Part shown: positions 12,101-61,600 of the stretch, in pieces
Position numbering within the stretch: position 1 is the stretch's first letter
Layout: every line of letters begins with the position of its first letter
Source: Mesodorylaimus sp. YZB2_4
Lineage: Eukaryota; Nematoda; Enoplea; Dorylaimida; Dorylaimidae
Assembly: GCA_030248295.1 (NCBI GenBank)
Contig: JASANH010000882.1
Coordinates: 434,001-498,000, forward strand
Reading direction: 5' to 3'
DNA length: 64,000 nucleotides
Position numbers and translations under genes: made by a program
The notes under the pieces: model-generated
The model's input: only the letters and a program-made list of their open reading frames with translations
What the model was told of the DNA's origin: nothing
Databases searched by the model: none

Positions 12101-15100
12101 CAAAGAGGACGAACACTCCCTTGAACAAAAAATGCATCTTCTTGCAGCGACACAGCGAATTCGATTGATTGACAGTCTGTCAAACTAGCCTCGCAAGACC
12201 ATACACCTCCACATTCTCCTTTGTTTATATACTTTTCTGCTAAGCCACTGTCGGCTGATAAACCATATCATAGCTATTTGCCTCGTTTAGAAAATCCAGT
12301 CTTGGTGATTATTTTTATCACCCAGCCACTGTTAAGCTAAACAGACATCAGACCACTACAGTTCACTTTTGTCAATAAACATGGGCGTAACTTCTGTCAG
12401 GGACTGAAAAAATGCAATTTCACTTTCAAAAGTCTATTTACAATCGACTTTTGCTTATTTGCGTAGAACCTACGCTTATATGATACACTTTATATGTACT
12501 TGATAACCTAATGCCCGTGCCAGTCGCCAAAAAATTACGACTTATCGCTTGTGTGCCTTCGACTAGATGCATGAAATCTGTCCACGGCTAAGAGGTTTTT
12601 GTGGCAATTTAAGTGTAGGTGGGAACAAAATAAGCAGCGCGCATGTCGACTCTTGGCTTGAAAATATCTACTGTAAAGACAACGGAGTTATACATTATGA
12701 ATATACGGTACAAACTGCAAGAATGGAGTGCCTGAAAAAATCTTGGGATTTGTCGCAGAAGTGAGCCAAACCAAAAAAACCGTTTTGACACATTTGTTTA
12801 GGCTTTTATCGCAAGAGCACAAAGCAGTTTAGTTTTTCTTTTGCATGTTTTCTTCTGTGGAGAAAATAAAACAGAAAATTTGTGAAAATTGCTTCGAAAA
12901 TCAGGGTATTAGCCGATCTCTGTCAGTTTGACGGGTGGTATAGTAGGAGACGAATCAAAAGGCGCAACAGTAAATGTAATTGCTGTTTACTGAAACCTGG
13001 ACTTTTCGAATCTCGCTTTGCGTGCACTAAAAACAGGCTGTGGGTTCGCTTATGCAAAAAAGGCTGCGCGAAATTTGAATTTTTAAACTTAATTATCTTT
13101 TACTCCAAATGTAGCAAGTTCAGTTTTTACTGATAATTTACAGAACCAATAGGTTACACTTCATGTCATTCTAGGTCCCTTTTTTGTAAAATTTACGAGG
13201 AGGCAAATAAGGGAAAGAGTTTTTATTTTTTCTTACAGGCTGGTACTGCCCTGCTGGGAAACTAAGGGCTACTGTGGACGTAAAAAATCTGAGTTTTTTA
13301 TCCTAACTCAATTAATTTTTTAATTGCGCCTTACATTTTAAATTACAAGCACTCAAATTTTCAGTTTGCCCTAATAAAATTTTAGAAACGACACGTTTGT
13401 TAAACTTTTGGTTCTTGGCCGCTTTGGCGCATTGGTTCGGCGTTCGTGTATCTTTTTCTCGGCCGAGCTCGTCCTGGGTTCAATATCCAAAGATTGAGGT
13501 CGAGAACCATAGCCGACATGGCACGCCAGGCCAGGGGTGGCTCACCCGGTACCGTCGAGGTGCTCTTTTTTTTGTTTTTCAAATTTTTATGGGTGGGCCG
13601 CGCAGCTCAAAAACCACAGGGACTTCTTTGACTACTTGCAGTTGGCATCGTTAGCGAAAAAAGATATCGTTTATCGTTACCGTTAACGATAAAGGGCCAA
13701 AAAGAAACCGTTATCGTTAGTCGTTAACGCGTTAAATATCGTTAGTTTTCAAAATTAACGGATGCAGCGTCATTGTGTGAATAGCCTGCCGTTTTAACAT
13801 ACATGCTGATATTTAATACTGGAAAATCTGACTTGTTTATTCTCTGCTGCTGTCGCCAGGTTTAGTTTTTCGCAATTTAGAAGACGAAGAGAGAAAAAAA
13901 CGAATTTGATCATTTGTTGATGGCCATTATTAAATACAGTACTCATTAATTCGCCTCATTAATACTTATCTATATTCGCAGCTGGTTAGACACAATTCAG
14001 CTGTAGCTACATAGGGCACCTTTATGTCCGGTGGCTCTGCGCAAATCCTATAAGCACTTGACAAAAACCTATAAAAGGCGACGATCCCCAAGAGTCTCTC
14101 GGGTGCCTATGCGTGTAGAGCTCCTGCAAGGGAGCGCGTGACCTCATCTAAGTCCCGCTTCAACTATCCTCAAAGAAGAGTGGCAGACTAAATTTTGCTT
14201 TTTGCAGACTATATTGATTGTTGACTGTAACAGCAATTCGACTAGAAAGGCGTGACTCCTAAGGGCCCCTGTTCTAATCATCCAGATTGCACATTTCCAG
14301 AAAATCTTTGTGAAATCTGCAACTAGCGTAATTTTCTCCCCAACTGCACAGCGCTCGATGAATGAATGCAGATACGGTGCTGATCGTGAGTCGCAAACCT
14401 ATCATAAAAACTCATGCTCATCAACGCAGTCATGTTGGCTGATGCGCATCTAGGCAGTACAACCCTGAGTCCCAAGTAAGTTTCCCTCGCTCCCACTGAA
14501 GGAAACTTTGAAGGGAGATCTCCACGAAAATCCATGAGAAAAAGGTTAAAGGACAGCCTCCACCCCGTGCCCCGCGCTAAAATGCCACCAAAAGGCTTTC
14601 GAGAATGCAAACCTGCAGATGGTTTCGATGGAGGGGAGGGTAATGGAGCTATCCTCATTCTGTGAATTTTATACAGCGCCTGTCACTGCGCGTGTAATCC
14701 TATGCCTAGAGTTCAACTAATGCGTTATTTAGCACGAAAAAGATACCCTTACCGTTATGACGCGTTATATAAAAATAGATATCGTTACCGTTACCGTTAA
14801 TATCGTTGGCCAAAAGAGATGTCGTTAGCGCGGTAAATATCGTTATCAACGTTAACGTTTTCCAACACTACTTCTAGCAGATGCCACACTTCCGGCTTCC
14901 AATCCCTACTTTTCGAGTCCGTGATTTAAAAGGCCGCATATTCTGCAAAAATTGAAATTGGCGTTCTACAGGAGGTAATGACGCCAAGGGACATAATACT
15001 GTACCAGTAACTCGTGGCCATACTGTACAGTGTCATAACTAGGTTGGCTCTTTCACCCAAAAAATCGCACTCTGAAAAAGATACTGCACCCTAGATCGGA

Positions 15101-18100: not shown

Positions 18101-21100
18101 AAGTAATTCGATCAAATCTTTGCTCAAATTGCAAAACGTTGATGACAAAGAAGGTATGCTGCAAAAATTTTTTTCCATGCCGTAGGTCGCTATTTTGTAT
18201 AAAAATTTAAGTGTTTTTTTTAAAGTTAAACGTGCGACTTGTGCTCGCACCTTTTTAAGACGCTATAGGGTACTCTAACTGGGTCAAAACAGACCAAAGC
18301 ATTGCAGACACTCTATGGAATAGGCCTGACGTTACTGGGCTAGATTACAAGATACACGAAATTCACAAGTGGACTGTAACCTGCACACCCTACTGGCGGG
18401 ACATGCGAGAGACCGAAGTCTCTGGGACAAAAATCTTCGACTGAAGGAAGGCAAGTCTCGCGGCTAATTATACCTGCCGCTAAAACATCAGCCGAAGTAG
18501 TCGACGACTACCAGCCAGAGGAGAGTGTCGATCTCCTCTGACCGCCAGGATTGCTGGTCACACAAGCCTGTACAGAGTTCAAAGCCAGGAAAGGCAGATT
18601 GTCGCACTCAGCTTTTTCCCAATCTCATCATCTCTTCCCACACACTGCCAACAATTAATTTTGTTTCAGAGCAAGAAGTCAGCCCCTCCAATGACCTGCC
18701 CCTTCCAGCATATCAGTGGAGTATGATCATGAATTTGATCAAGCCCTGCATATCCTCCTCTTCCGACCCAGCAAGGCTCAGTTTAAGAAATCGTTATTAT
18801 CAAAATGCGATTCAAGCCCGGTACTCTGGTCCTATTGTTCGCACATTATTGTCAACCCAAGAATATTTGATTTTAGATACTTCTCTGAAGCAGATGATAA
18901 TTGGTGGAATACGACAATGGCAGAATTTTTTCAGAAATCCGAAGCATTCCACAGACGGGCTGAGGTAAGCGTGGGAGTGCAGGATGAGGAAAAACCTTGT
19001 GTTTTTTGTAGTCCGAGCGGTACAGATTTTGTATTGTCAGGTTTTTCTGGGGGCAAAAAACAAAATCTACATAGGTCGAAATGAAATGAATGACCAGTCT
19101 GACAGTTCCATAACATCCGAGAGTTTATTGTCCTAACATCCTTCAGGAAATTTGAATATATGCGGTATAAGAGCACGGCAAAAACAAAAAGATGGGTTTG
19201 AAATTTTTCAAAAAGTGCCGAGTTTCTGTTTTGCAGGAACTTCCCAAACAACTTATCAAATCCCAGCAATTCGAAGAAGCTTCTAATATTTTGACGGAAT
19301 GGTCCATTTTCAATTATTTCATATCTTCTCTTTGGAATTATGAATTGTTATCCTATTGGAAAGAGGTCAGGAAACTGCACACTGCTAGTTCTGTTTGTCT
19401 CGAACGTACTAACTCGAAATTTCAAAAGCTTAGATTCAAACCCTTGATCCAAATTCCGATGCATTGATTATGAGCAAAAGTTACAACGACGCTTTAGAAT
19501 GGTCAATCGAAAATAATGAATTCAATGAAACAGAATCGATTCAAATTCGCTGGAATTTAAGCAGGCTTTTGTAAGGCTCTATGTTTTACATGATTTCAGC
19601 AGGGTAAAAGTGGATCGTCCTTCAAGGAATTGCAGCCTCGTCTGACATACAAGAGCTTGTTTTAAGAGGCACATGTTCAGATTTGTAGTTTATTACATCA
19701 CTAAGCACACGTATGTGCACTCGGGGCCGAAGGGGCACATCACTGCATACGCGAAATAGACTCATTAGGTTGGTCTTCAAAGTTACTGTAAAATTTGGAC
19801 TCGCCCTTTCAGACCTCTCTTGTAAATATGAAGGTGGCTAGAAACACAGGAAAGCAAACAGTCCATGCTCGTATTTGTTACAAATATAGCATGCTAGAAA
19901 TCGGTAGTTATGATTTTTGTACGATTTCTTATGCGCGTCTTACATGAACAATGGATCTCCGCATGCAATGTGGGTCCAGGGCCCAGTTAAACCGAGGCAC
20001 TTCCATGTTTTACAAGCGCCGCAAGTGTCTATTTTACAAGTATCCGCGTTTCACCACAAACGAACTCACAAGTAAAAAATGCAAGTGTGAAAGATGCCTG
20101 GTCACGAGGAGCCTGTGGGCCGTCCATTAAAAACACGTTGCGGGTATAGAGAACTGCGGGTAATAAGTCACAAGCCTGAATAACGAGCGTTTCAACACGA
20201 CATTTCTGGCCCTTGTAAAAAAGCGGACTTGTATAAAGTGACTTGTGAAAAATGGAGGCAGAACTTGTAAATGAGCCCAAATTCGGCGCATTGATTTTTC
20301 AGAAGGTGAGGGGGGCAAGGTGCTTTGATAAGTTAGGCCACCTTTCGCAGGGGAACGAATTCTGGTTTCCTGCCATGATCATTGACTTGCCAAAAGACGA
20401 AAGGAGACGAATCCACCGCAAAAACGGAGGGGAAATGGATGAAAACCAGCAAGGCTACAAGTCCTACGAGTCTCGCTCTGACTCGTAGAAAATTCAACAC
20501 AAGTTACGAGTCTCCGCCCACTTTTTTTGAGAGCTTGTAAGTTTATGAAACCGAATGCTCGTTGTCGTACTAGTTCTCCCGTAACAAATCTTGTAGCTCT
20601 AGGAGCTGTCAATGGATCATTCACTTTGGTGAAGCGCGAGTTGCTTGTGAACTTGTAACTTGTGATCTTGTGGCTTGTTTTGCTTGTAAGTTAGTGAAAC
20701 CTGGCCCAGAACTCATGATCCGTTAATATAGCAGTGATAATAAATTTCTGATGAACAAAGGCCGGAATGCTTAGCAATCTTGCTTAGCATGAGTTTTCAT
20801 TTAAACCTTTCATTTTAGCTTTCAGAATCGAAATTACCACGAAGCTAAAAAACATTTGGATGATATAATCGCTTATTTCGATAGCAGTGGCTCAAACAAG
20901 GATATGTGTGACCAGTATTTATTGAGGGCAAGGATTGCGGAAGAGGCAAATCACCATCTGTCTTGGTAATTTAGGCAGTTTCAATAGTATCGCTTGATTT
21001 AGATGCTCGAAGAGAGGACTTTGATGTACCACAACGATACTGGGGTCTTGTACGATATTATCGGCGATCTGAAAGCGGCCCTAGCTTTGGAGAAAGAACG

Positions 21101-23724: not shown

Positions 23725-24185
23725 CAAAGCAATACGGAGAGGAGAGAGCAATACAATTATTTGCATTGATTCTTTTATCTCCTTCACATTGATTTTAGAT
23801 TTTGCAAGTAATCATTCAATCAGCACGCGCCTGCGTGATCCTATCCATCTAGTTTTTTGCTCTGAACATGATTTATCATTTTATGCTCACTTTCTTGGGA
23901 ATCGCTGATCTGTTGAAGACCTATAAATCTTCAAGGCAGAAGCAATCAGGTTTTATTGCCCAGGAGTACGATTTTCTACTGTAAAGGCCACAGTTTGCTG
24001 CTCATCGCTCATTCATGACATGCTGACCATTTATCATGCCTTGGCAGCTGAGAATTGATGGAAATAGGTTTTGCCCATCTTTGGTCGTCATGAGAACTCA
24101 ATTCTGGTTGCTCATCACATCCACAGTAGCTCCGACTGTGCCGTCAAGCTGTGGCCTGTCTGGCAAATCTTCAGCTTGTTTAGCA

Positions 24186-25775
24186 ATGAAAAACCGACTC
24201 AAGCTTTCCTCGTCGACTCTCGTCTATGCCTTCATTGGTCTGGCCCTCTTCGGGGTGGGAATATGGGATGGATACTCGATTGTACGCGATTACATCGAAA
24301 GCAATGAGTTAACAGTGCTGCGACTAGAAAACGTAACCGGGCATTTTCCATTTATCAGTGAAGCCCGAGTATGTCTGGGCTACGCACCCGATTATCCATT
24401 CCTGTACAGTTGGCGGTCTGAAACAAATATCACCAATAAGATCAGGCGTACATTGGAAAAAACTGAGCATATATGGTCTAAACCTAACCTGACTGGAAAT
24501 CTAGAAAAATTGATAATAGAAGAGGATATTTTCGATGTGTTTCTCCTTCAAAAATATGCTTATGACTTGGATAAAACGGATATAGATCAAGTTAAAAAAC
24601 AATTAGAATTCCTGAACCCGAACATAACCAGTGTGACGGCTATCTTGGACAGTTTTATTCAAAGTGATCGTTCTGTTGACCTCATTAAAATTATTTGGCA
24701 GGCCATGAAGCACACATTCGCAAAACTGGAAACCGAAGAACTGGCCGACAATGACAGCACGACAGCGCCGATGCTGGACTACATGGATATCGTCCTCGGA
24801 GAAGACAGACCCTACAAGATGTACTTCTCCCTTCCTCTGGGGAAAGATATGACCACTGCGACACCCATAGTAGAATACGGTGTGGATATTATTATGGACA
24901 ACCCGATTAAACTTGGCCCCAATAATATGCTGGCAAAAATTGACGGTGCTTACGATGCAGCTGAGATCAGTCTTCAGATCAATGGCGAACGAATATTACT
25001 TTCAACATCTTCTGACCATGGATTCTGGGACCCGAAGGATGTGCTAGTTTTCACGGTACTCATATCGAATGATGGCGTATTCGATACGACTGACTGTCCA
25101 CCTTGCGTCAATGGCTTCGCTAGCACTGAAGCTTGCTTGGACGACTTGACAGCCCGCACCATATCCGAGATGTGTCAGTGCACGCAGTTTAGTCAGCTGG
25201 TCGTGTCTGCAATGACGGCGACGACGATGCAAAGTGCAACCCGGCCATGCACTGCATCAATCTACGAGAAATGCAGAGAGCGAGCCATGGACGAGGTGGG
25301 GCGTAGAACGGACAGGGCCATCAGCGAAGGCACATGCAAGCCGTGCCTGCGAAGTAAGAACAGCTATCAGTTCCTGTACGAATATGAACAAGGAAATTTG
25401 AACGAACCGTTCACTCGACTCATATTCATTTGCCAAGACCGATCATACATGGTGTACAAACAGGAACCAAAGTTCACACTCCCCCAAGTGATAGCACAAG
25501 TTGGAGGGAGTCTGGGCTTGTACACAGGCTTCAGTATGTTGTGGATTGTCCAAGCATTTTTGTCGTTGGTCAAAATCCTAAAACACAAACGGAAGCAAGG
25601 TTTGGCTGCGACCAGCATTGAGACGCAGAGAAATCAAGTAGATGGCCCCGAGTTTGATCAGTTGAAACAAGTCGCCGCACAGAACAGAGGTAGGATTATC
25701 TTGTCGGAGAAGAGGGCCGAAGACCTACTGCAGATGTATTATCAGCTAATTCAAAGGCAGGGACGCAAATGGTAA
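24186..25775 (+). CDS. DEG/ENaC-like channel subunit, tandem paralogue 1, single exon
   Basis: This intronless frame encodes 529 residues from the ATG at 24186. I prefer that start because helix 1 follows at the same distance as in the other two paralogues and a TTTAG acceptor lies just upstream. The frame is open back to 24036. Helix 1 is near residues 10-29 (LVYAFIGLALFGVGIW). The post-M1 segment reads FPFISEARVCLGY. The extracellular domain has many N-glycosylation sites and a Cys block with CLDDL and CQCTQFS, then TRPCTA and CKPC. Helix 2 (about 440-465) contains LGLYTGFSML, a G-x-S-type filter, but lacks the Glu that usually follows. The cytoplasmic tail looks coiled-coil-forming. It probably assembles into a trimeric cation channel; ligand unknown. 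Confidence 0.85.
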   Translation: MKNRLKLSSSTLVYAFIGLALFGVGIWDGYSIVRDYIESNELTVLRLENVTGHFPFISEARVCLGYAPDYPFLYSWRSETNITNKIRRTLEKTEHIWSKPNLTGNLEKLIIEEDIFDVFLLQKYAYDLDKTDIDQVKKQLEFLNPNITSVTAILDSFIQSDRSVDLIKIIWQAMKHTFAKLETEELADNDSTTAPMLDYMDIVLGEDRPYKMYFSLPLGKDMTTATPIVEYGVDIIMDNPIKLGPNNMLAKIDGAYDAAEISLQINGERILLSTSSDHGFWDPKDVLVFTVLISNDGVFDTTDCPPCVNGFASTEACLDDLTARTISEMCQCTQFSQLVVSAMTATTMQSATRPCTASIYEKCRERAMDEVGRRTDRAISEGTCKPCLRSKNSYQFLYEYEQGNLNEPFTRLIFICQDRSYMVYKQEPKFTLPQVIAQVGGSLGLYTGFSMLWIVQAFLSLVKILKHKRKQGLAATSIETQRNQVDGPEFDQLKQVAAQNRGRIILSEKRAEDLLQMYYQLIQRQGRKW

Positions 25776-27430: not shown

Positions 27431-27438
27431 GAGCCCGC

Positions 27439-28758
27439 TAGCCTTGATACAGTTTTGGAAAAAAGATTCAGTTTCAGTTTCAGTTAACTGAATCCCAAAA
27501 GATTCACTGAACTTAACTGAATGATTTAGTTTTCCCTGAAAAAGAATTTCGCATCTAGATGTTAGCACTTGACGAGAACAATATCCACTTTTCTTCATTC
27601 GAATAACTACTCTTCCGCATTTTAGACTTTAAATAGCTCACAAGGCGCAGTAAAGACCAAAGTCAACACCAGAGGGTCCTTTACGAGCACAGCGATGCAC
27701 TATCATGTCTCAAGAGTCCGCCCACCTACAAATCCGCAGGCACACAAAGTACCTGAACCTTGTAACCGTTCTAATTTTACTGCTATAGCTCATGATTGTA
27801 ATTTCTTTTGGTCCAAAAGAAAGCTCTGCGCAAAATATTCAGCTCGTCAGGCCAACTACTCACAATCAGCAGAGGTCAGCAGCCGAAGTCCTGCAAATGT
27901 TTGGAAACATTCTCGCTTCCTCAGGTCTTTTGTGTCAAAAAATTTCGAGCCAGAAGCCTGGAAGAAGAAGCTGAAGCCCATAACCTGAACAGCGGGTTCA
28001 GAAGAACCCTGCGAGTGTTTCTCAACTTTCTGCCGCCTAGCACACACATATTTAAAAAACCCGCAAGATTTTAGCTGACCGCTGCTGACCAGCTGGCCAT
28101 AAGGGCCGAATATTTTTAGTAGAGCTTTCTTCCACACCAGGAACTTAGGATTATCGAATGAGCGTGTCAAGTTCAACTCACTGGTTGGCAAATCTTTCTA
28201 AGATCAAGAAGATGTAACTTTAAAATGTTTGTTATAAAATGATTGAAACTGAAGAAACCCTTTTTCATAAACTGTAGTACTTTTATTTTATGACACTGTA
28301 CCGACTGCTCTTCAACTTGGACCTCGCCTAGCTTATAACTCTTTCACTCGGCGCTAGCCTGCAGGAAATGATAAAGCACTTTAATATTCGTGAAGATTTT
28401 GCAACTTCTCTCTACATTTGGACCAAAACTCGATGGATCGATTTTTTACGCTAACTAGCGTTTTAAGGGTAACAAAATACACCTGCAACTCGCGATTAAG
28501 ATGATTCGACACAACAATTCGTCAAGCTGCGTTTCGTTTCTCTTTGAGATCTGCGCGAACATCCGCAAACAGATTACTAATTTTCAAAAGCGTAGTATTC
28601 GAAAACTGAATTTAACTGATTCTAAAAAAATACAGTTACAGTTAAATTCAGTTTTGGCGAGGAGATTCAGTTTCAGTTTCAGTTACAGTTAACTGAATTA
28701 AAAAGATTCAGTTAACTGATGGATTCAGTTTCAGTTTCAGTTAACTGTAACAACGCTA
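27439..28758. mobile_element. hAT-like non-autonomous element with CAGTTAACTG arrays, copy 1
   Basis: The left end is TAGCCTTGATACAGTT; the right end on the minus strand is TAGCGTTGTTACAGTT. Both are flanked by the perfect 8-bp duplication GAGCCCGC (27431-27438 and 28759-28766), which is the hAT target size. About 100 bases at the left end and 150 at the right are iterations of TTCAGTTTCAGTTAACTGAA. The centre is a foldback hairpin. A second copy lies at 54847-55837. No transposase is encoded. Confidence 0.75.
27805..28150. repeat. Foldback module inside the hAT-like element
   Basis: Blocks such as AAAGCTCTGCGCAAAATATT, TCAGGCCAACT and GGTCAGCAGCCG on the left recur inverted on the right (AAAGCTCTACTAAAAATATT, TGGCCAGCTGGTCAGCAGCGG). 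This gives an imperfect hairpin. It resembles the separate foldback at 15622-16059. Confidence 0.6.
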
Positions 28759-28766: not shown

Positions 28767-29617
28767 TCAAGGATGCAGTTTGGACGAGTTCAGTTTCTCT
28801 TTTTGAACACGACTCGCACAGGTGCTATGCACATGCAGTTGTGGTCTTGCTGTTTATGCGATGTTTAGGTTTTAGCGGCTTTCGAAATACATACACTTCG
28901 ATATAATTATCTTCTCTTGGAATAAATCAGTGGTCTTGCGGATTTGAAATCGCTGTCTACTGACTATCATTCGCTGTTTGGCGCAGGAGATAGGGAAAAA
29001 GAAAATCCTTAGCTAGTCTGCAGATTAGCCTCCGACGCTCTAAGCCCTATCGAATGGTCTTACACAGTTACAAAGCAGTTTTCTTCAGTAGCTCTTCGAA
29101 TAGAGGGCAGGAAACTCTAAATAGGGAATATATGCCCAGCCATCAAGGGCAACCTGACTTTTTTCTGCTGGGATTAAAGAAAAATCAGGCTGCGGGGATG
29201 TATCCATGACTCCTCAGAAACTGAAACCATGGGACTAGTCTCGCCTGATGATGAATGCTCCTTCGTTTGTGCACCGAACTTGGACCTGTTGAATCTTGAG
29301 TGAATTGGGGTTCCCAGATGTCTTGTCATTACAACAGCAACCGAAATGAGGTCGTAATCTATCATTTCCATGGCTCGCCTGACCTAGATTTCTAGTCTTG
29401 AAGGACTTTGTATTAAACGTTCGTTCTGATTTATCCCTTAAATAACTTATTTGTCATTGATGGATAAGTAGCAGATATCATCCCTCATTTTTGGCGATTA
29501 TGAGGTCGGCAGGTACAAGTTCAAGTCGAGTGTATGGACTATAGCATTTGGCCACCAGGTTCAAAGCCTGTGCCTGACTTTTTGCGCTGCATATTTCTCC
29601 ACAGTTCAAATCAAAGC
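28767..29617. other. Spacer upstream of channel paralogue 2
   Basis: No gene is recognised. A TTTCTCCACAG acceptor lies a few bases before the chosen start of paralogue 2, so a 5' UTR exon and the promoter probably lie here. Neither can be placed. Confidence 0.4.
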
Positions 29618-31210
29618 ATGGTCTCCTTCTCTACTGTAGTCTACACGTTTTTTGGCCTCTTACTGTTCAGTGTAAGCTGCTGGGATGTGTACACTATAAT
29701 CCATGATTACATCGAAGACAATACGGGCACTGTGGTTCAAATTGTGAACATCACTGATAAATTCCCTTTCATTTTTGAAACAAAGGTGTGTCTAGAATAC
29801 CAATTTTACTCAATTTTCTTCCTCAGTTGGCAAAATCTGCTTTTTCCCCAGCGTCATAGGGCAAGTAATTACAAAAATATGACAGCAAAGATGATGAATT
29901 CTACTCGAAGGCGATCAGAAAATATTTGGTCAAGACTTAATTTTAATGGCAGCTTCAAAAATTCAATAAGTGAAGATGACATTTTCGATACATTTTTGGC
30001 TTACAAGTATGTCTATGATATGGATGCGAAAAGTTTTGATCAAGTATACCAAAGAGACCTAAAAATCCTGAACCTAACAAGATCAGAGGCATCAGATTAC
30101 TTAGATGCATTTATCCAAAGCCCGAGATCCATTGAACTCATGACAACAATGTGGGGCGCAATGGAGCACATATTCGCACGACGATCCTCGCCCGATGGGG
30201 TCATGGGAAACAAAAGCGGCTTCGTATTTGAGTATATGAATATCACAGCGAGCATATTGCCATTCATAGTTTGTTTCCACCTGCCGCTGGCCGACGACAT
30301 CAGCATCAACAAACCGAGTATAGCGTACGACATGGACATGAGATATGCGGGCGCTACAGTCGACCTGGGTCCGACTCCAATGCAACTTGCTGATGGCATG
30401 GCACAGATCTCTTTTAGTATTAATGGCGACTCAATTTTAGCCAATTCCATGTGCAAATATTCAAGCTACTCGAGAAGAACTAATCTAATTACAATTTCCG
30501 TATCCAGTAATGCCGTGTTCGACAAATCTGAGTTTCCACCCTGCCAAACCAAGTTTCCAAACCTGCAAGCGTGCATTGACGATCTGAGATTTCGGACTAT
30601 CATCGAACTATGCAAATGTACTCCGTTCAGTCAAATGGTCAAAGCGGCCCTGATCGACGGCACGGAAGCTGGGATAACGAGCGAGTATGTACAACCCTGC
30701 ACAGTGAAAATGTACGAGCAATGTATGGATCACAGGCGAGAAATCGATGAGCGAATCGATGAAGCAATCAAGGACGGCTCTTGCGAACCGTGTGTTAGGA
30801 GTAAGAACAGCTATCAATATGGATTTGACTGTATAACTGCAAAGTCGCTAAATACACCCAGTTCTACAGTCGAGTACATTTGCCAAGATCGGTCCTACAT
30901 CGTGTTCCAGCAGACACCGCTTCTCAGCGTTCACCAGTTGATCTCCCAAATCGGAGGGGATCTGGGTTTCTATACCGGCTTCAGTATGTTGTGGATTGTC
31001 GACCTGCTCTTGTTTTTAACCAGACTGTATCGACGCAGGCTGCATGCAAAAGAGCAGAATAAGGATGACATAGCATCCATTCAAGAAAAGAAGAGAGCAC
31101 AGGTTAATGCGCGTGTGGTTGAGGAATTGCAGGAGGATGTGAAACGAGATGGTGACAACATTTATAGTTTGCAGCAAAAACTGGACAGTCTTTTAGAAAA
31201 ATGCATGTGA
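29618..31210 (+). CDS. DEG/ENaC-like channel subunit, tandem paralogue 2, single exon
   Basis: An uninterrupted frame of 530 residues starts at the ATG at 29618, which aligns with the starts of its two neighbours. The frame is open back to 29534, but an intron acceptor (CTCCACAG) sits between. Helix 1 is VVYTFFGLLLFSVSCW. The post-M1 segment is FPFIFETKVCLEY. The Cys block reads FPPCQTKFPNLQAC, CIDDL, CKCTPFS, VQPCTV and CEPCVRSKNSYQ. Helix 2 contains LGFYTGFSMLWIVD. The tail is rich in Lys, Glu and Gln with coiled-coil character. The block CxPCVxSKNSYQ is shared by all three paralogues. This one has an Asp where classical DEG/ENaC subunits carry a Glu four residues past the filter. Confidence 0.85.
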   Translation: MVSFSTVVYTFFGLLLFSVSCWDVYTIIHDYIEDNTGTVVQIVNITDKFPFIFETKVCLEYQFYSIFFLSWQNLLFPQRHRASNYKNMTAKMMNSTRRRSENIWSRLNFNGSFKNSISEDDIFDTFLAYKYVYDMDAKSFDQVYQRDLKILNLTRSEASDYLDAFIQSPRSIELMTTMWGAMEHIFARRSSPDGVMGNKSGFVFEYMNITASILPFIVCFHLPLADDISINKPSIAYDMDMRYAGATVDLGPTPMQLADGMAQISFSINGDSILANSMCKYSSYSRRTNLITISVSSNAVFDKSEFPPCQTKFPNLQACIDDLRFRTIIELCKCTPFSQMVKAALIDGTEAGITSEYVQPCTVKMYEQCMDHRREIDERIDEAIKDGSCEPCVRSKNSYQYGFDCITAKSLNTPSSTVEYICQDRSYIVFQQTPLLSVHQLISQIGGDLGFYTGFSMLWIVDLLLFLTRLYRRRLHAKEQNKDDIASIQEKKRAQVNARVVEELQEDVKRDGDNIYSLQQKLDSLLEKCM

Positions 31211-31992: not shown

Positions 31993-32941
31993 GCTTTACT
32001 TTGGTCTTTATTGAGCGGGTATGATGTTTGATTATTGCAGAATATGTCCAATATCTGTACTCTGTCATGCTTTTTGCACTTTTTCATTAGCACATGAACG
32101 ATATAAGTGATAATTTGCCTAACGTTGGCTAATCGGATAATGAGAAGAACGGGCTTTTATTGTTTTTGATCAGGGCCTACTATACATGTACATGTGCGAA
32201 AAAAAGTTTACTGCCTGTTGACATCCTATGTCAAAGTATAAAGTCAGTATCCTGATATTACGTAGCCGAGCAAGACTGGAACTACAATTTTATCCATAAA
32301 ACCCTTTTACTTGCTGTGCTTGCAAACATATCTCGGGAATTTCTGTCACGACAAAAGCATATAATTCGGTTGACATATGTACTCGCAAAATGGATTCATT
32401 GAATTCGGATTGCCTGTTTCGTTCTACCTTATAAATCAATATTGATACATCGTTTCAGGAAACCCGCTCTACTGTACAGTATACAACGTATCCCGCATTC
32501 TATGCATACAGTCTAGAGGCTTACTTGCTATTTCGAGCAATACAAACATCAATGTGGAAAAACGCGATCTGAACCAGCGAGTAAGAGAATACAGAGAGCT
32601 GTGAGATCTGTGCGCCATTCTCAGGCACCCAGTTGGCTTAGATGATGGCGAGCGCTCATCGTCAGTTGCTTTATTTAAACTTACATACTGTAGTTACAAG
32701 CGATTCGTAGGCGAGCAATGGCTTATTAGAGACCGCTCAGTAGCATGGCCACACACCATCGAATTGGTAACACAGCAGATCAGAGTATATTGTATGCTGG
32801 CGGCAGTGGTCTTTTAAATAAAATGAATATCCAGAGCAGAGAAGCCTAGGCTAACCACGAAGACAGGGCTGGACTAGGAATCATTTACTGGGCATCTCAA
32901 AGGCGTGAGAATCTTAGGTGCAAAAACTGACATCATGCGAC

Positions 32942-34492
32942 TACGGTTGGTAAAAATACTTGATTTGAATGCGTATGCCTACACGCAAGGTCTGTGGAAT
33001 GCGTGTGCGTATTGCGTATTACGCAAATTGCGTACTCCACAAAGTATGCATACAAGTTTGCGTATTGCGTATTTTTCCCACTACAGCTAAGGATATATCT
33101 AGTCATAAACTGGAACTAACTGCATGTCCATAAGTGAAATGTGAGCCACCACAACAGTACTACAGATATTAAACATCGCAGAACTTGTCGCTGCCGCTTA
33201 TGGTCCGCTAAAAAACGTTTTCGGGGAAAAAATTTGTATTAGGTTCGATCATGGATTATTTCTCAGGGGTCCATTCTGGCTCAGCCAGCTACCCGTTTAG
33301 GCCAGAATCCCTTTCTGGCCTGTGCCCCTTTTGCATAAATGGGCCAGTGTTCCTGTCCCGATTCAGCCGAAATCTCTGTAAAGCAAGTGCATTAGGTGGG
33401 TGGTGTTCTCTGGGCATTCCTGCACCCGCACCCATGACGCGGCTACAAATGGACAAATATGCCCACAGATTATAATGAGGAACTAAAACTGAAGGTTATT
33501 CTACAAAACGGCCATGGTGCCATCCTGCCGTGTTCTTCGTAGACTGATTTGCGAGCTCTAAAAAAGTCAGAATATGTTATGGATGGAACGTTAGTTTGGT
33601 TCCATGCCAAATCATGTGCTCGGCATTCATGCTCCTTAACATGTGCTGGTGCAAGAAATTCAAGCTTACTCGGATCCTTGGTTCACTAAGGGCATTTGAA
33701 GGGGGGTTGAAGTTGACTTTTTTTAAAAAATGCTTGGTAACCTTTTCAAAACATATTTTGGCTGAATAGCTTTCCTGGTTGGAATGAGACTGGCCAAAAG
33801 ATGTCTCTGGCTGAAACAATACCCTGCCAGGCTGGGAATTTTCCTGGCCGAAATGGGCCACAATCGGCACAAGAACCAGGATAATGTTCAGGGCACAAGT
33901 TGCCGTATATCCTGTTTATAAATCCAAGAACCTGGCACAGAATATGGCTTGGTGGCCGCAGAACTTACAATCAGCAAGCCGCTGACTTTGAGCTTCTTCG
34001 ACTACCTTCTAGTCTAGCATTGAGAAGCTACAGCGGCGGTCACTCACTCCCTTTATTAAAAATCTTCCTTGCTGGCCGATTATTTGAAGGTTTTATAACT
34101 ATATGAGGATTTTACACATAATACATCACTTCAAACAAAACAACTCCCCCCCCCCCCATATCTCAAAAAAAAACCAAAAAAAAAAAAAAAAACCAAAAAA
34201 AAAAATTCTCCAAACCCAAAAATACCAAAAAATAAAACCTTACCCCCCCCCCAACAAAATTCCCTCCTTCAAAAAAAAGGCGCCAAAAAAAAAAAAAAAC
34301 AAAAAAAAAATATACACACCCCCCCACACCAAAAAAAAAAAATTAACAAAAAAAAAAAAACCAAACAACCGTATATGCGTACACCAGGTCGAATGCGTAT
34401 GTGTATGCGTACGCGTGTACGCATCCGAATTTCCATGCGTGTACGCAAACTTTGCGTATGCGTATTTTGTACGCAACCAACTGTACACCTTA
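32942..34492. mobile_element. hAT-like non-autonomous element with TGCGTAC arrays
   Basis: Perfect 8-bp direct copies of CATGCGAC flank the block (32934-32941 and 34493-34500). Both inner ends carry dense TGCGTAT/TGCGTAC words (32960-33070 and 34370-34480). An inverted GGTTGG/CCAACC pair lies close to each edge, seven bases deeper on the right. The interior has no transposase and includes an abnormal A/C-rich tract. Confidence 0.6.
34130..34370. repeat. Low-complexity A/C-only tract
   Basis: About 240 bases consist almost only of A and C, with homopolymers up to about 16. Single T or G bases are rare. The strand asymmetry and long homopolymers look unlike the surrounding DNA. They may mark a sequencing or consensus problem. 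Confidence 0.7.
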
Positions 34493-46771: not shown

Positions 46772-46940
46772 ACATTTCAAATGTAATTTCATGTCACTTA
46801 TTTATGAGCTTCACAATTGTGCTGAGCGTGATGCAGTCACTGACTGATTACCAAAGAGAAGACACTACTTGTCGTTGTGCCTTGTTCTCACGAAATGCAA
46901 AAACAGACCGGGCTGCCAGAGCCTACTACATTTATACCCA

Positions 46941-52508: not shown

Positions 52509-52628
52509 GACCGCCACGCAATTAGATAATCAGAACAACAGATTGTTACCAAAACAAACGAGTAATCATATCAAAAAAGCAGAAAAACTCGGAAAAAAGA
52601 CAATCGTTCAATTCCTTTGTCTATCCTG

Positions 52629-55600
52629 CTAATAATTATCCACTTCCATGGGCTGTGCAATCCCAACGACCACCGTGTCGTACCCGTATCGCTGCTGTCC
52701 ACTGATCGGATCCTTCTGCACGCTCTCATACAAGCAAGCCAGGTCGGGCGTTGTTCGGATCATGCTAGTCAATTCGAGCAGCTGCGGGCTTTTGTCCGCG
52801 TCTGGGATCACCTGAAATAGTACGAGTCAAAGACCAATCAGACTACCTCATTTGTTTGCACATTCGTACGTACGCTGCTCCAGCGATAACGCTATCACCT
52901 CTCCCCGATATTCTACATGACCCTCCCTCTCAGACCATCCGCAACCCTCCGCCACACTGCATCCACGTTTCATACCTGCAAGGCGCACACAGCTCTCAGG
53001 GCGCATCGTTTCAATTCGTCTTGTTTCTCGTACTCTTGCTTCACCGAATTAGCTTTCACTTTCTGAATACACGTCTGTTTCAACGGTTCCACCAATCGGT
53101 CCAAGCGTTGTAGGGTTTGCGTCGGACACAAAGTGGCCAAACGAATCAACATTAAATAAGTCAGCATCTTGATATCGTAATGATCCTGAAACCACAACCT
53201 TCCATTCCGCCCTGACTGTCCTTTCCAAACCTCACCTTCAATCCGTCCTCCACATGAGTCAGAAACTCGAAAACATCCAGTCGTTCCAGGCACGTGTCCA
53301 ACAAAGTGTACATGCATTCGAAAGCCGCCTTCCTCAAATCCAGTCCGTCATCGACCGTGTGCTTGAAAGGACCCATCTCCACTTCACGAATTAACTCGCG
53401 TCGTATCTTCGTTTCACCGTACACCTGCGGCAATACCGTGGCCAGGATATCGCCCTTCACCAAAGACGGCTTGTTGTGAGCCGCCGAATTGAAGGTCACC
53501 AACGCCACGCGTCGCACGTTCAGGTCTGGGTCGGTCAACGTTTGCAGAAACTCGCCGATGCACGCCTAAATGGACCGCGACATCACAAATCCATACAAGG
53601 TCACTTGGCAGCAGCTACCAGCAGACTACCCGTGTACGGGCAAAAGGGCAACCCCACCCTACTGTTCCACCGCGGGTGATTTTCGGGGACGAGGACGAGA
53701 GTTCTGGGTGTCAAAGTCAAGAAATCTGGTTCATTTCAGGTCAAGATATAGTAAGAAGTCGAATACGACTCCTCAAGATTTCTTGACATTTTCAAGAAAT
53801 CCAGTTTACTCCGCATTTCTTGGGTACAATCAGAAGTCACTATAATGTAGCCTTTTTTTGTGTCATATAATCGTGGCAAGCAGGAGCTTTTCAAAAACTG
53901 ATGGAAACCCTTCGTTAACTGTTTTATTGATAGACGAGATTAGTTTGCTCTGTAGTCAGTGGAGTTACTCAATACTTTTTGTTTTGACAGCAACTGACAA
54001 TTCATGTGACTTGCACTTGGGTGCTTGTGATACAAGGGGATCCGACATGAACCGATCTGAGCTAACATCCCGGGTGCATGTGATCATGGGAAGCAGTGAA
54101 GTGCACTGTCTATTGCAGTCATGATGTATCCGCTCTATGATGATAACTGGTGTGCTGAGAGGGGAGTGGAGGTGAACCGAGTTGAACGAGTGCTCAGGCC
54201 TGGTCGTATCGCATCCTTTCTTCTGCCTCCTTCTATGCTTTTTTATGTGTGCTCTCGACTTTTTGCTGAAGGCCACACTAACACATACCTTTTCTGAATG
54301 TGTCGATAGAAGTAAAAAGTTGAATATGAAAAAAAGTTTACTCTGCTTTTTTGCAATTAGCCTTCACATATAGTTTACTTATATTGCAGATTAGCAGAAA
54401 CAAAATTCCTTGGCGGATTTATCCGCGACTGCCTTTGTGAAATTGTATTCTTTCTTTCTTATGGCACGATTTCAAATGATTCCAAAAACCTTTCCTAGAA
54501 CCCCTTCCTCATCTGCAAGGTTTTTAACAAATTTTGAGTCAGCTTTGTCAAAATGGACCCACACTTCAGATATGTTTTCTATTCAGAAAAAAGTTTAGCA
54601 TCGATTGAAAACCAGCTTGCTAGCCTCACCTACCAATACTGACCTGATCTCACTGGTTACATGATGCACATTGCGCAACGTCTCGTCATCATGCGGAAAG
54701 GACAAATTTTTTTAATAAGTAACCATCGCACAACATTCTGCAGAATGATGATAAAATGTTTACAGTAGCGGGTATTATCAATTATCAGGAATTTGAGGAA
54801 AGATACTGGACATTTTTAATAAACTTTTTCGAGGTAGGGGACCCGGTAGATTTAGCACAGTTTTGGAAAAAACATTCAGTTTCAGTTACAGTCAGTTAAC
54901 TTAATCTAAAAAGATTCAGTTGACAGAATTTAACTGAATGACTCAGTTTTTCCTTTAAGAAATCTTCTTATCTGAACGCTTGGCAAGCATAAATCTCCAC
55001 TTTTTTCATTAAGACCCAACACTCTGGACTGTATGACTCCAACAGCTCACAAGGAGCCCTTGCCAGCCGTTACAACCGAAGAACTTGACATGACCTATGC
55101 TTGTAAATTGTTTAGGGGCAGAAGCTCTATGCAAAATATTGGACCCGTCTGACCACATGGCCAACAGTAATCAGCGCCCGAAATCCTGCAAAGTTTTTTA
55201 AATCTCCCTGCTCTGACGGTATTTTTGTTGGAAGAACCAAAAACTCTAATGTTGTAATACGGAGCGCAAAGACTGAAACCTAAAAACCAAGTTTGGAGAA
55301 GCCCCTGCGAGTTTTCCCAAACTATCTCCTTACTGCACAAGAATCCAAAAACCTGAAGGACTTTAAGCGCTGACCAGCTGGCCGGACGGATTCAATGTTT
55401 TGCAGCTTTCTTTTACACCCAGGGCCAAATTACAATCATCGATTGTGTCAAGTTTAACTTAGCAGTTGGCTAGGCTTCCTCAGATCAAGGAGATGAAAAC
55501 TCTTTCACTCACGCAGCAGGAGCTGATAAAGCACGGCAATATTGTGAAGATGTAGAAATTTTTCTCTATGATTTGAACCAAATTTAAACGGATTTTATTT

Positions 55601-58600
55601 CATTTACAGCCGCTTAGGGCTTTCTAAGCATGACAAAATCTGCTTATAACTCGCGATCAATAGGATTTCAACCAGCAATTCTCAACTGCGTTTTATTTCT
55701 CTTTGAGCTTTTAAGAACAGCTCACAACATCACCAAGTTTAGAAAACGCGGAATCTATCTGATTCCAAAAAAATCAGTTACAGTTTAAATTCAGTTTTGG
55801 CAGAGAGATTTAGTTACAGCTAACTGTATCAACGCTAGGCCCCAGTCGGACACTACCCCACCCAGAGTGGTCGACTGAAAAGATGTCAAGGGTCCCTCGC
55901 ACTATCCTAGTTTACATCAAACATCAAACACTGATCACCTTGGGTGATCTGTCTCATATTACATTTTGAACAACTAATACTGACCTTATCAAACATAGCC
56001 TCATATTTAGTATTAAAAAAAACCGCTTACACAAAAAAACCACGAGCCCCGAGTGGGAATCGATCGTCATCCATGGAGGTTACCCAGAGTATATGCTACC
56101 ATTCCAGACTCAACCTCCAACACACCCTTTTCGTCCCCTCATTGTACTGATTCAGGGTTAGAAAATGATTTTCTCTGATTTTCTAGAGAAAAATTGGATT
56201 TTCACATGGTCGCATGGCAGCACTACTAGCGCTCGTTCAAAATCCCGAACCCGATTTCGATCTCGATAAAAAGTGGTCGGGATTGGGACTGAATATTGTG
56301 GAGATAGAATGTTTTTATTGCAACAGGAAATGGGGCTGGTGTGTGGGAAACGAGCTGTAGGGTGATAATGGCATGATTAGATGAAACTACTCCCATAAAA
56401 TGCACAAGTCCTGCTTTTTCTGATGTACGATTTGCGCCCAGTTGGATATAGTAACAGCCCGCATTTGCCATCATTAGATGGTGGGCCTGCTGCAGAAGCT
56501 GGCGACATTCTGCTTGACACTGACTCAGATGGTCATGGCCATCAAAATGTTTCAGAAGGGGAAATAAAGAGACCTTGGCGGATGATTGAATTATTAGAGG
56601 AGAAGGAGGGGATTTGTTTGCTAATTTGTAACTGATTCTTCGCTTGCCTGATTTTGAATGCAATGATAAATAGTGCACTAAAAATTATCTAAGGAAAGGG
56701 ATAGGTGGCTTTTAATTTGCTGGCTGCTCAGGGTGGGTTGTAGGTCATCTATAGCCAATGAAAAGCGCTCTCTTTAAAAAATCCCGATCCTGTCCCGGTC
56801 CCGATCCCGGTCGGGATTGAGCGAGTCCCGATCCCGATACCAATCCCGAAAATAATGATCCCGAACGAACGCTAAGCACTACAACCTATTTCAACTGATT
56901 TATTGATTTTTATAGGGATTCAAGAGTTAGAGCCCCAGAATGAACCCCGATTCCGCGTCTAAATTACCCATTTTCCCTGATTTTCACAGGTTTTCCACAC
57001 ACTTCTCTGATTCCGTGACTTTTCCAGACTTGTATTCCAACTTTGTGATCCCCCCACATCTAACCTCACCTCCACCTTGCCCGCACTCACCTTCAGCAAA
57101 TTATCCACCGGTTGTGGTTGATCGACGATAGTGAACTTTACTGCCGTGACCACGGTGGCTCGTACCAACGGATTGTCGTTCCCGATCAAATGGCCTTTCA
57201 ATTTCGGCAACAAACGCTCCGGTTCTAACAAGCATAATTTGCCCAAGCATTCGGCCACCACGTTCCGCACGCCTTCCTCGTTACAACCCGAATGCGACAA
57301 CAGCACCTACAACACACAGAATAGACCAATTTAGTGTCAACTCTTATAAACTCACGCATCGCCTACACGCCTGTATTTTATCGAGCACCATAAAAACCCT
57401 GATCCACTGCCTACCTTATACACATGCTCTAAGCACTGAATTTCCGCTCTTCTGGACACGAATTGCCCATTCATAGCATTCCTATGTTAATAGGTTCCTT
57501 CAGGTAAGAGCACAAAATTCCACTCCCAGCAAAGTGTGTCTAGCTTACAAATATCTCGACTTCCAGGCAGCCTCACCCACTCAAGCTAAACTGCACTACA
57601 TTATTATCGGCCATCTTCACGCCTGTCATGCGCATCTTTTTTATGCACACAATGGCCATCAGCACTATGCCACGCTATTGCAGTCATCGCTATCGTTGAG
57701 CCAGGGCAGCCCCGAAAACCCCTTCAAGCACAGCCCCCAATCGGTTAGCCTGGGAGTAGAGTGATTTTTCCCAAAAAATCTTTCCCGCCCGTTCTAAATT
57801 TACATTTTCATATTTGCGCAAATTATTACAAGAAAAACTGGAAATAGAGATGATGAAAGCCAAATTCGACTAGGCTACCTTGGTTTTCCCATTTTTTCCC
57901 TGACTCATTGGATGCCGCATTCAGTGGCAGTCATTAAAAGTTACCGACTGCAACTCAGCAAACCAAAAGAAACACGCTTATAACCTCAATGTCATTTTCT
58001 TAAATTTATTATCAGCTGGTAAAGCTTCACATTTTTCAGACCAGGCTCATCAGCATCCAGAGCCTAGCCTCTGGCCAGGGGAGGGGTTTTGAAACTTTTC
58101 AGGCGTCCGAAGTGGGGAGGGGTCCGAGAAACAACAAAGCAAGCTTTTGTATGCAAAGGGGCCCATGGGTCTGCTCCACTAATTTCACGGCACGGCAACA
58201 ACCAGTTTGTCCACAACTCATCACCAGCGCCAGTGCTAGTCATCCAAGTACACAACACTTACCATCCAAATTTGGTCAATGTGCGGTTTGAATATTGCAG
58301 AAACGCTTTCTACTTCCATCATCGTCGATTCCGAGCTGATGATCTCCTGGAATGGCAACAAATCTAACCATCCTGCACTCCTGCCAAAAACTATTCGCTT
58401 GCGACCAGCCCCATTTTGCGATAAAATTTCATGCGCCCCAAATAACACCCCATTTCGAGTTAGAAACAATTTCAAAACTGATAAAGCAAGCAAGCCCAGT
58501 CTCACCTTTAAAGCGTGCAGAAGCAAATATTGTCGTTTCGGTTGTGTCTCGATTTCTTTCAATACGATAGGTAAATATTTTTCCAAATTCCCAACAGCCA

Positions 58601-61600
58601 CACCGCCCAATGCCAACGAAGCCGCCGTTTTCACTTCTTCATTATTCGATTGAAATCCACGCATAATCACCTGATCGATCGGCGGCTGCGTATCGGCAAT
58701 CGATTTCGCTGATTTTCGTCCGATTTCTCCCAAAGCCAACAACGAAAATAATTGAACTTGCTGATCGACGCCTTGACTCGTGGTCAGGTTGTAGACAAAT
58801 TTGGATACGAGCTGCAAGGAAGAATCCATTCGCCCCTTCTACCCTCAGTTCTCACATTCATAACTTACACTCGGCGCTTCCTGGGGTCTCGCCGCGACCA
58901 ACGTGGCCAAACATTTGGCAGCGCTATGGAAATATTGTTTATGCACAGCCGAAGCCGCGTGTTGATCGTAGATTGGTTTCGTCAATAATATTTTCAATTC
59001 ATCGAAACTCGGTCGTTGTAATCCGCTTTGCATTAATTGCAATAAAAATTCATTTAAGGCATTCAATGAAATGCCTTGTAAGAGCGGCGATTGAATTAGA
59101 CGACCGATCGATAATAAAATGGCATCCACATACTCGGCTACACCAGACGATTGCGATTTCAACATGATGGTCAACAAAGCCAACGTCATCTGAGCGATTT
59201 GTAAATCACTTTCCACAATCAAAGCCGGCAATTCGGCTAACACTTTTTTCGACATGGCCGGCGTGATCGACGATTGATAACTCGTATTCAACGTATCCAA
59301 TAATTGCAATGTTGATATTCGAAGCGCTCGTTGATTCTTGCGTAAAAATTCAGCCAAATCATTCATGACCGACGGAAGAATCGAAGCCAACGGTATCTTC
59401 AAGGGTGATTGCCCAATCACGCTCAATGCACGCACAGTTGTCAAACGAGTGATTTCGTTCTTCAATCGATCCAATAATAATGGCAGGCAAACAGGCAGCT
59501 CGGCCTAAAATCAAAATACATGCTCTCTATGAGATAATACAATTAATTTTAGCTAAACATGGAAGACACACCACCAGGCCTATGAAAACGCAATTCACTC
59601 CAAGCGAGTGGAACTTGGAATTACCTGACACGACAATGCTTGATCCAATCACTGCCTCAAGCAGCCTCCTACTCGACCATCTTAGCAGACACCCAATTCC
59701 ACACTGCCAACAAACATCTTTTCCATCCCCACTTTACACTGCGTACTCAGACCGCTGACTCGCCCCATTTAGACAGGGCACCCTGTCTCGATTAGTTGCC
59801 TAAGCCACGAAGTACTCAGCTGTGTCCTCGGACGACACAATACATCATCTGAATGCACACTATCGATCGGCCCAACATCGAGCCTAGACATGACCCCTGT
59901 GATCAGTCCATGCTGGCAAGTGCCTTCAATTATTCCTTAACGACAGACTCAAACTGTAAGGACAAGCCATCCCCCAGGACTCCAGCACCGACCGACCCGG
60001 GCCGGATCGGTTTGGGGGAACCGACCCAAGCTGTGGGTCGGCCGGATCGGAATTTTGAATTCCCGCCAAAAGTTTTTCTCTGACGGCCAGTCATGTCTTC
60101 ATGCAGGCAGCTAGGATCGACACTTCAACCCACTGGACTGGCCGCCCATGCATGACATTGACGTTTTTTTTGCAAGTTTCGACCTCACCCACCTTCTGTC
60201 CACATAGGAGCGCGGCTCATTTGGCTTGTGAAAGGTTGATCAAGGGGGCAACCCTGACTGAAACGCTTCAGTTCTATTCTGGCTGAAGACGTCAGTTTAA
60301 ACCTGTTCTCAGAGAACTGGCTGTGGGCGATTCACCAGAAATTCAATTGGAGGTGGAAGTGGTGCCCTCGATTGAGAAAACTGGTCCTAATTGCCAGTCG
60401 GGGCCCTCCGTTCTTGCCCTCTATCATCCGGAAACGCCGATTCTGGCGCAGGATGCCCTCGGCGGTGATGCTCCAGCGGAGCAGCGCCAAGCGAGGCCGC
60501 CAGAGGGAAGCTGCCATGAGAGTTGATCGCCTCACACACTGCCGCACCCGTCATGATGACTGCTGGCTGGCAACTGGCAAAACCCATAGGAAATTCGGGT
60601 AGGTAGGGGTGGGGGCCCAGCCCAAAAAAATTTAAAAAGCTGTCCTCATACCGGCCACCTTCCACTCTAAGAAGTCAAGTCTAGAAGCGAAACGGGATAT
60701 TGCAGGTGCAGTTGGACAGCAAAAATTTGTGAAATTCTACGCTGTCGCCTCAGACAGCATGGGGCAAGGGACGAGCACGTTAACTTATTCCTAAAGTCCT
60801 CCTCCCCTGTCCGTTTTCGCCCGAAATGCGTCAGCCTCTTCCTCCTTGACTGCGGGTGTCTGGTGGTTCTTTATCGAAGAAAGAATGTGCATCATGCCAG
60901 AAAACAAATGTGTGGACGCAATACGATGGGTCAGGTCGGTCGGGTCGGGTCGGTTTGGTGACCTCACACCCGGGTCGGTCGATGCTGGCCAGGACTCGTT
61001 AAAAACTTCTACATGTCTTATCCTATGACTTCGATTAGTCTGCAGTCAGCGACGAAAAAAAGCAGACACACACAACCGGATTCAGTTTTCATCTATCCTA
61101 ACAATTTAGTGTTATAGTAAGTGCGGCTGAGAGCATATGAATCGTAGGCCCTACATTAGAAGATACAGCGGGGACTGGATGATCTCACAAAGGGTACCTC
61201 AGTCAACAGAGCCAGAGCCCAGAATCGACCGATCCGCCGATCCGAGGGGTGGATCGGTTCCTGACCCGATCCAACTGCTGGATCAGCCGGATCGGCAACT
61301 AATATTTTTTCGAGCTTTAAATGCTGGGAAATGATAAAATGTGGCATAATATGAAGAGAAAATCCCGTTTTTTCTCTCAAATCAGTATTTAATCTGCTTA
61401 GCTCTCTTATGTCCTTTGGAATGGTTTAACATAGAGTGACAGCGAGGAACCATGGCAGGTTGGTGAAGATGCAGTGCCAAACACGTCATCCCCATCTATC
61501 TTCTACTTTTTGAATTGGATCGGATAGGAATCTGGCCAATCCAGACCCTGGATCGGATCGGGATCCAGGCCCAGGGTCGGATCGGTCGATGCTCGCCAGA

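Follow-up and report, generated by a model that had tools for sequence, protein, structure and literature searches.

How many transposon families can lie side by side in one locus with the same layout of their ends and a different short word crowded behind each pair of tips, and what would such words be for? This question is raised by a stretch of 64,000 nucleotides of the nematode Mesodorylaimus sp. YZB2_4 (contig JASANH010000882.1, C52:434001-498000 in our numbering; hereafter the window), in which a first-pass annotation had drawn eight hAT-like non-autonomous blocks with subterminal word arrays. We followed these blocks through the genome (145 Mb, 1067 contigs; C-numbers denote contigs with places found and L-numbers numbered genomic loci). 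Seven of the eight are non-autonomous hAT transposons. They fall into five end types, called here by their words: CGTTA, CAGTT, GCGTA, TCCCGAT and the sister pair GGTCGG/GGATCGG. The eighth, with the word TTACAAG, was rejected as a hAT element. We consider it probable that these seven blocks are what they seem and that each word is a site for the BED domain of the family's own transposase.

The arrays are real, and in the hAT families they are terminal, because they exceed both shuffled and control sequences and the interiors of the blocks are poor in the word. For each block the most frequent 5-mer was counted in the two 120-bp ends (both strands, without overlaps) and compared with 300 dinucleotide shuffles and with 731 pairs of ends from the rest of the window. 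In all eight blocks, cited here by the start first given to them, the top 5-mer exceeded every one of the 300 shuffles, with 16 copies of CGTTA, 10 of ACAAG, 19 and 11 of AACTG in the two CAGTT blocks, 16 of ACGCA, 11 of CGGGA, 7 of CCGAC and 11 of GATCC; among the control pairs none had 8 copies and eight had 7, the blocks ranging from 7 (block 59982) to 19. Inside the blocks the top word occurs 0 to 5 times per kb, but 16 times per kb in the TTACAAG block. The recurring units are 5-6-mers with variants (CGTTA, ACAAG, CAGTT, GCGTA, CCCGAT, GGTCGG and GGATCGG), and it is for this reason that the words as first written are rare in exact form: the arrays stand, the spelling does not, CAGTTAACTG having no exact copy in 54847-55837 and GGTCGGATCGG occurring once in the window. 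In the hAT families the word also forms part of the terminal repeat, and its copies mostly follow each other at 4-6 bp within clusters. Short terminal inverted repeats are present in all eight blocks, as had been claimed, all eight are multi-copy in the genome, and the reported absence of a transposase is borne out by the longest stop-to-stop frames overlapping them, of 157 aa (32942) and 152 aa (56227).

An 8-bp target duplication is made by the hAT element Hermes, and duplications of this length had been described for most of the window copies. They are complete (8/8 letters) at 27439, 56227, 59982 and, with an offset of 7 bases, 32942, and partial (6/8) at 54847 and 61219; none was recognised at 13640 and 19978. 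Genome-wide, such duplications stand next to the terminal repeats of six families. For four of them the two best pairs per locus were scored, and a pair was counted when it lay at the terminal repeat with 6-8 of 8 letters equal. By this count a duplication is present at 8 of 10 loci with TCCCGAT ends (TAGCGTTCGTTCGGGATC; five 8/8, two 7/8, one 6/8), at 8 of 10 with GGTCGG ends (CCAGCATCGACCGACCC; five 8/8, three 7/8, one of these shifted by one base), at 6 of 10 with GGATCGG ends (CCAGCATCGACCGATCC; two 8/8, one 7/8, three 6/8, one of these shifted) and at 5 of 10 with GCGTA ends (TACRGTTGGT; three 8/8, two 7/8). At the remaining loci better scores went to pairs lying elsewhere, most of them matches between words in the interior. 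In the CAGTT family, scored as the best of three left offsets and with the window copy included, both TAGCGTTG-type ends were recognised at 17 of 30 loci, the duplications being 8/8 at 12, 7/8 at 4 and 6/8 at 1. The true CGTTA ends (TAGTGTTG) carry duplications, read by eye, at three independent loci (L032, 7/8; L051, 7/8; L053, 8/8), L054 repeating the flanks of L053 and so not being independent. Exact end patterns were found 62 times for the CGTTA left end, 266 times for CAGTT and 71 times for GCGTA, and the reversed control gave 0 each time.

The first-pass annotation had also proposed a search for full-length partners. A PF05699 profile search of the genome gave 150 scored places out of 171 candidates, from which the 3' ends of 10 places, plus C354, were sampled; C813 and C237 were read as full elements. 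Transposase genes bounded by the same word as elements of the window were found for three words, as whole elements for TCCCGAT and GGTCGG and with one end read for GCGTA; none was found for CGTTA and CAGTT among the ends compared by eye (100 of 266 for CAGTT). The C237 element has TAGCGTTCGTTCGGGATC at both tips, an 8/8 duplication ATTCAGAA, TCCCGAT arrays at both ends and a 677-aa frame; its 3' end and that of C1061 combine a TCCCGAT array with the repeat TAGCGTTCGTTC. The C813 element has CCAGCATCGACCGACCC ends, an 8/8 duplication CCTAAGGA, GGTCGG arrays at both ends (with the repeat CCAGCATCGACC at the 3' end), a BED exon and a 629-aa frame that is 31% identical to the C237 frame over 564 aa. 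On C354, a hAT C-terminus is followed, about 170 bp on, by a GCGTA end matching window 32937-33098 at 83%; the left end of block 32942 thus matches the 3' end of a hAT transposase gene. The products of C237, C813 and C354 match PF05699 with E-values of 7e-15, 2e-16 and 6e-6, respectively. The zf-BED profile PF02892 was matched in C813 only (exon 1, E 6e-5), C354 having been read in its C-terminal part; upstream of the long C237 frame there is a BED-like stretch by eye, with an in-frame stop and with no BED match in the part searched. The solved structure nearest to C813 by sequence is Hermes (2e-20).

Four blocks are therefore assigned to hAT by a transposase (32942 via C354, 56227 via C237, 59982 via C813 and 61219 via the outer terminal repeat of C813), and 13640, 27439 and 54847 by terminal-repeat type and 8-bp duplications only. 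Because a remnant of the C237 protein lies at 56375-56569 and 59992-60078 matches the left end of C813, blocks 56227 and 59982 are, by these matches, related to the C237 and C813 elements; the former is a deletion derivative of a C237-type element. Two places were rejected as partners: C354 for the GTTAACG family, since its end is of the GCGTA family, and C23:739230-742690 (L123) for the CAGTT family, this being a non-autonomous copy with a nested insert of about 2 kb, itself flanked by the duplication AAGAATGG (by eye). On C124 a CGTTA left end and a PF05699 place below threshold (17.3 bits) are 2 kb apart, which makes a weak candidate.

An exact inverted 5-mer pair within bp 9-28 of the tip is confined to one end in four families, and its chance of arising at an end, as estimated from shuffles, is 1 to 17%. 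It is present at 10 of 10 left versus 0 of 10 right ends of TCCCGAT, at 7 of 10 right versus 0 of 9 left ends of GCGTA, and at 19 of 27 right versus 3 of 28 left ends of CAGTT, the three left ones being T/A runs. For CGTTA, 24 distinct ends with exact TAGTGTTG in L031-L060 were counted (the anchor is free of the word and repeated loci were removed), with the pair in 12 of 13 right-type and in 0 of 11 left-type ends; one left-type end has a non-word inverted pair. The word pairs start at bp 11-13, two CAGTT copies extending outward to bp 9. Where the pair occurs and the orientation is known (TCCCGAT and GCGTA) it lies at the 5' end, and among the seven lineages with a known 3' end the pair was found at that end in none.

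The sister families GGTCGG and GGATCGG, which have the outer repeat CCAGCATCGACCGA in common, differ in their word in concert in the terminal repeat and in the arrays. Over 20 ends each, the former has 3.95 GGTCGG and 1.80 GGATCRG per 130 bp and the latter 0.55 and 4.10; at bp 13-15 of the terminal repeat, GAC stands in 20/20 GGTCGG ends, and GAT (18/20) or AAT (2/20) in GGATCGG ends. Outside the window, further words were read at hAT 3' ends, GGGTAY (C167), GGATCCG (C1043) and GTCAAA (C114), and by eye two of the ten ends (L113 and L118) had no array within 660 bp. The whole panel comprises seven hAT transposase lineages, distinguished by terminal repeat, with six words, and two more words known from non-autonomous copies only. 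The idea that the layout is kept while the word is swapped is thus in agreement with most families and with the hAT lineages outside the window; it does not extend to C285 and C47, which reuse practically the word of C813.

Table 1. Positions of the array-bearing elements of the window and of features within them (position 1 is the first letter of the window).
Feature	Position	Strand	Ends and duplications
hAT-type non-autonomous element, word CGTTA/GTTAACG	13638..14870		right terminal repeat TAGTGTTGG, left degraded; duplication unrecognisable (copy too worn)
Inverted word pair AACGTTAACGTT	14848..14859	-	bp 12-23 from right tip
TTACAAG element, not hAT	19980..20706		terminal repeat GGCCMRGTTTCACC; CAG flanks at 19977-19979 and 20707-20709
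hAT-type non-autonomous element, word CAGTT	27439..28758		TAGCGTTG-type terminal repeat; duplication GAGCCCGC 8/8
Inverted word pair CAGTTAACTG	28738..28747		bp 12-21 from right tip
hAT-type non-autonomous element, word GCGTA	32942..34485		terminal repeat TACRGTTGGT; duplication CATGCGAC at 32934-32941 and 34493-34500
Inverted word pair TGCGTA-N5-TACGCA	34459..34475	-	bp 11-27 from right tip (5' end in transposase orientation)
Second CAGTT-family copy, more worn	54847..55837		duplication 6/8; right end at C52:489822-489837
hAT-type non-autonomous element, word TCCCGAT	56227..56874	+	terminal repeat TAGCGYTCGTTC; duplication AGCACTAC 8/8; inverted pair of the family lost in this copy
Remnant of C237 transposase C-terminal part	56375..56569	+	65% identity over 71 aa, E 2e-15
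hAT-type non-autonomous element, word GGTCGG	59982..60988		terminal repeat CCAGCAYCGACCGACCCGGG; duplication CCAGGACT 8/8; ends match C813 element
GGATCGG-word sister family	61219..61594		terminal repeat CCAGCATCGACCGATCC (here CCAGAATCGACCGATCCG); duplication 6/8

The words are probably docking sites of each family's own enzyme, a prediction to which the layout, the autonomous relatives with the same word, the BED finger of C813 and the published Hermes structures all point, so that the putative role first given to the arrays, as transposase-binding sites, is strengthened. According to this model, a full-length relative would supply the transposase that mobilizes each non-autonomous family. 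The outermost 8-10 bp or so (TAGCGTTG, TAGTGTTG, TACRGTTGG, CCAGCATCGACC) would act as cleavage-site repeats, and the arrays behind them as clustered low-affinity sites for an N-terminal BED zinc finger. The left end of Hermes has a quasi-palindromic pair within bp 11-27 on which two BED domains dock cooperatively, and its right end is described as having no such pair (PMC10368747). By analogy, the inverted pair at about bp 11-27 of one end in four of our families may be the first cooperative docking site. A lineage might then change its word by altering the relevant part of the terminal repeat and the arrays together.

Several observations weigh against this interpretation. A by-eye crossing of the ends with the 150 PF05699 places (100 of 266 ends in the case of CAGTT) gave no sound partner for CAGTT and CGTTA, and C354 was met by chance as the neighbour of a CGTTA end, with one end read. 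C285 (L115, C285:43990-44650) and C47 (L119, C47:665750-666410) have a terminal repeat of their own, CAGGTCCGACATCGGG, together with an array whose word is practically that of C813; C285 and C813 have five 6-mers in common, and the count of GGTCGG is 9 in 150 bp of C285 and 13 in C813. Moreover, CGATCC is common to the GGATCGG and TCCCGAT arrays, and the words are thus not fully private. The one-end rule is not universal, the exact inverted pair being absent from 20 of 20 GGTCGG and from 20 of 20 GGATCGG ends (the GGATCGG left consensus shows one, yet no single copy does) and from the 5' end of C813. Among copies, conservation is not consistently higher in the word columns than in the rest: in a test on 10 ends, the observed difference was matched by 3 of 104 shifts at one end and by at least 17 at each of the other nine. 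Finally, mutation of putative sites deep in the left end of Hermes did not strongly lower transposition, as far as the cited part of the source goes (PMC10368747), which implies that dense arrays need not all be used.

Other explanations of the arrays may be envisaged. They might be slippage products, that is, imperfect hexanucleotide microsatellites at transposon ends with no binding role, as could be suggested by a word every 4-6 bp within clusters in most families and by word columns that are not specially conserved. Nevertheless, the arrays occur at both ends and in both orientations and fall into separate clusters, and their word is met again in the terminal repeat and in an inverted pair that has a constant position near bp 11-13. 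In addition, Tandem Repeats Finder gives only short, low-scoring rows in them, which disagrees with their being ordinary microsatellites, and of all the readings this is the one to which we give the least credit. It is also very unlikely, in our opinion, that the words are sites of a host protein, for instance a domesticated BED/CGGBP-type factor, or remnants of another carried function. Domesticated hAT DNA-binding domains of diverse specificity do exist in many eukaryotes, according to the portion of the literature consulted (PMC8097297), one word does serve two hAT lineages with different terminal repeats, and a minimal docking site of the Hermes type looks shorter than these arrays, the deep sites of Hermes being largely dispensable in the account cited (PMC10368747). 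However, the word lies inside the terminal repeat, in three families it is common to the element of the transposase gene itself and to its derivatives, and it differs between most transposase lineages, while several words are more than one host factor would need.

A further possibility is that the words diverged under selection to escape other transposases, titration by non-autonomous copies or host repression. The presence of seven hAT transposase lineages with six words in one genome would fit such an arms race or insulation, as would the best-copy identities to the window queries, which run from about 95% (TCCCGAT) down to about 79% (GGATCGG) and suggest bursts of different age. On the other hand, nothing measured separates selection from drift of specificity, and the word common to C813 and C285/C47 is not what insulation predicts. 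We found no evidence for the arms race raised in the first-pass annotation, the word columns not being consistently better conserved than their neighbours, and we regard it as unlikely.

The block with the word TTACAAG stands apart. An 8-bp duplication is present in 0 of 11 copies (window copy included), the best having 4 of 8 letters equal, and the hAT assignment was rejected for this block. Its flanking triplets are CWG in 14 of 22 cases, the two flanks of 4 of the 11 copies carry the same CWG, and its word is spaced at 7-9 bp in the dense right-hand array, versus mostly 4-6 bp in the hAT clusters. NuwaI elements, of the PIF/Harbinger alliance, are reported to make CWG duplications, to start mostly with GGG and to occur mainly in animals, in the part of the source cited (PMC4482050). 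The block fits a NuwaI/PIF-Harbinger-like (PHIS) element in its 3-bp flanks, which are mostly CWG, its short terminal repeats starting with GG and its animal host, features that the same passages give for this group (PMC4482050). The likeness concerns ends and flanks, and NuwaI repeats usually start with GGG, whereas those of the TTACAAG block start with GGC after CWG. A similar word-array architecture is therefore present in what looks like a second superfamily.

As for the setting, reading frames of the window match the families serpin, amiloride-sensitive channel, ChaC and CAND1. The elements lie among the long forward frames 7685-8791, 24027-25775, 29504-31210 and 35010-36653; those at 7685 and 29504 match the amiloride-sensitive sodium channel family (scanned), those at 24027 and 35010 are similar by eye, and together they point to a local cluster of channel genes. 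The frame 39339-39860 has a Sleeping-Beauty-type helix-turn-helix match below the curated cut-off and is probably a Tc1/mariner remnant. Eight array-bearing elements in 64 kb looks a high density against 138 to 901 candidates per query, mostly unscored, in 145 Mb. Near-matches to family ends at window 38743 and 59916 were inspected and dismissed as chance. In block 32942 the true end is 34485 and not 34492, with 7 extra bases (34486-34492) between the right terminal repeat and the otherwise perfect 8-bp duplication; inside this element, 34121-34370 is A/C-rich low-complexity sequence that, among the matches listed, is covered by the window itself only, and it may have been filtered or be a local expansion or an assembly error.

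A remaining question concerns what such a locus adds. That BED fingers choose hAT ends is already known, in structural detail for Hermes, and the mechanism proposed here keeps to established hAT biology. Taken singly the elements are ordinary, and the principle behind them is not new; the panel is. A literature search of limited depth found no published account of a genome in which many hAT families have subterminal words that differ. The added value lies in the number of lineages with different words, in an inverted pair that keeps its position while its letters change and in the concerted word difference of the sister pair. The panel makes a word-to-finger code, the one-end docking pair and the mutual insulation of families testable, with the word common to C813 and C285/C47 as a built-in control and with the GGTCGG/GGATCGG pair as a case in which the word differs by a small step. 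More tentatively, one may imagine a docking code that is fixed in position and free in its letters: each family would have an inverted pair of its own word that starts some 11-13 bp in from one tip, and the letters of this pair would be swapped together with the terminal repeat and the arrays, so that one genome would hold a panel of largely word-separate transposase-end pairs. We hold this to be possible, with the chances rather against it; if true, a BED recognition code might be read from the transposase-end pairs of a single genome.

Among known systems the closest parallel is Hermes, which, in the passages cited, resembles our families in its BED-finger hAT transposase, its many short subterminal repeats and a one-end quasi-palindromic pair directly behind the terminal repeat (PMC10368747). 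The Hermes word is AAGT (the BED sites STR1-STR3), whereas CAGTT, CGTTA, GCGTA and CCCGAT stand at a similar position here, and our arrays look denser and more regularly spaced, by impression and not by a side-by-side count. In Tol2, a hAT element of medaka, a perfect palindrome likewise follows immediately on the left terminal repeat, and there are repeated motifs in the subterminal region, according to the same source (PMC10368747); Tol2 differs in its word and in being an active element with tested ends. In the maize Ac/Ds system, also hAT, heterogeneous non-autonomous elements share short terminal and some subterminal repeats with one autonomous element, according to the part of the source cited (PMC3260210), and in this respect they recall the families described here; however, Ac/Ds is one system, whereas several end types coexist in this genome. 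Finally, work on the hAT-derived CGGBP proteins reports, in the portion cited, hAT-type BED and Hermes DNA-binding domains of diverse specificities, with the motifs of four hAT proteins matching their own subterminal regions (PMC8097297). Those proteins are mostly domesticated and were measured in vitro, while here it is the DNA side of the pairing that has been read, in one genome.

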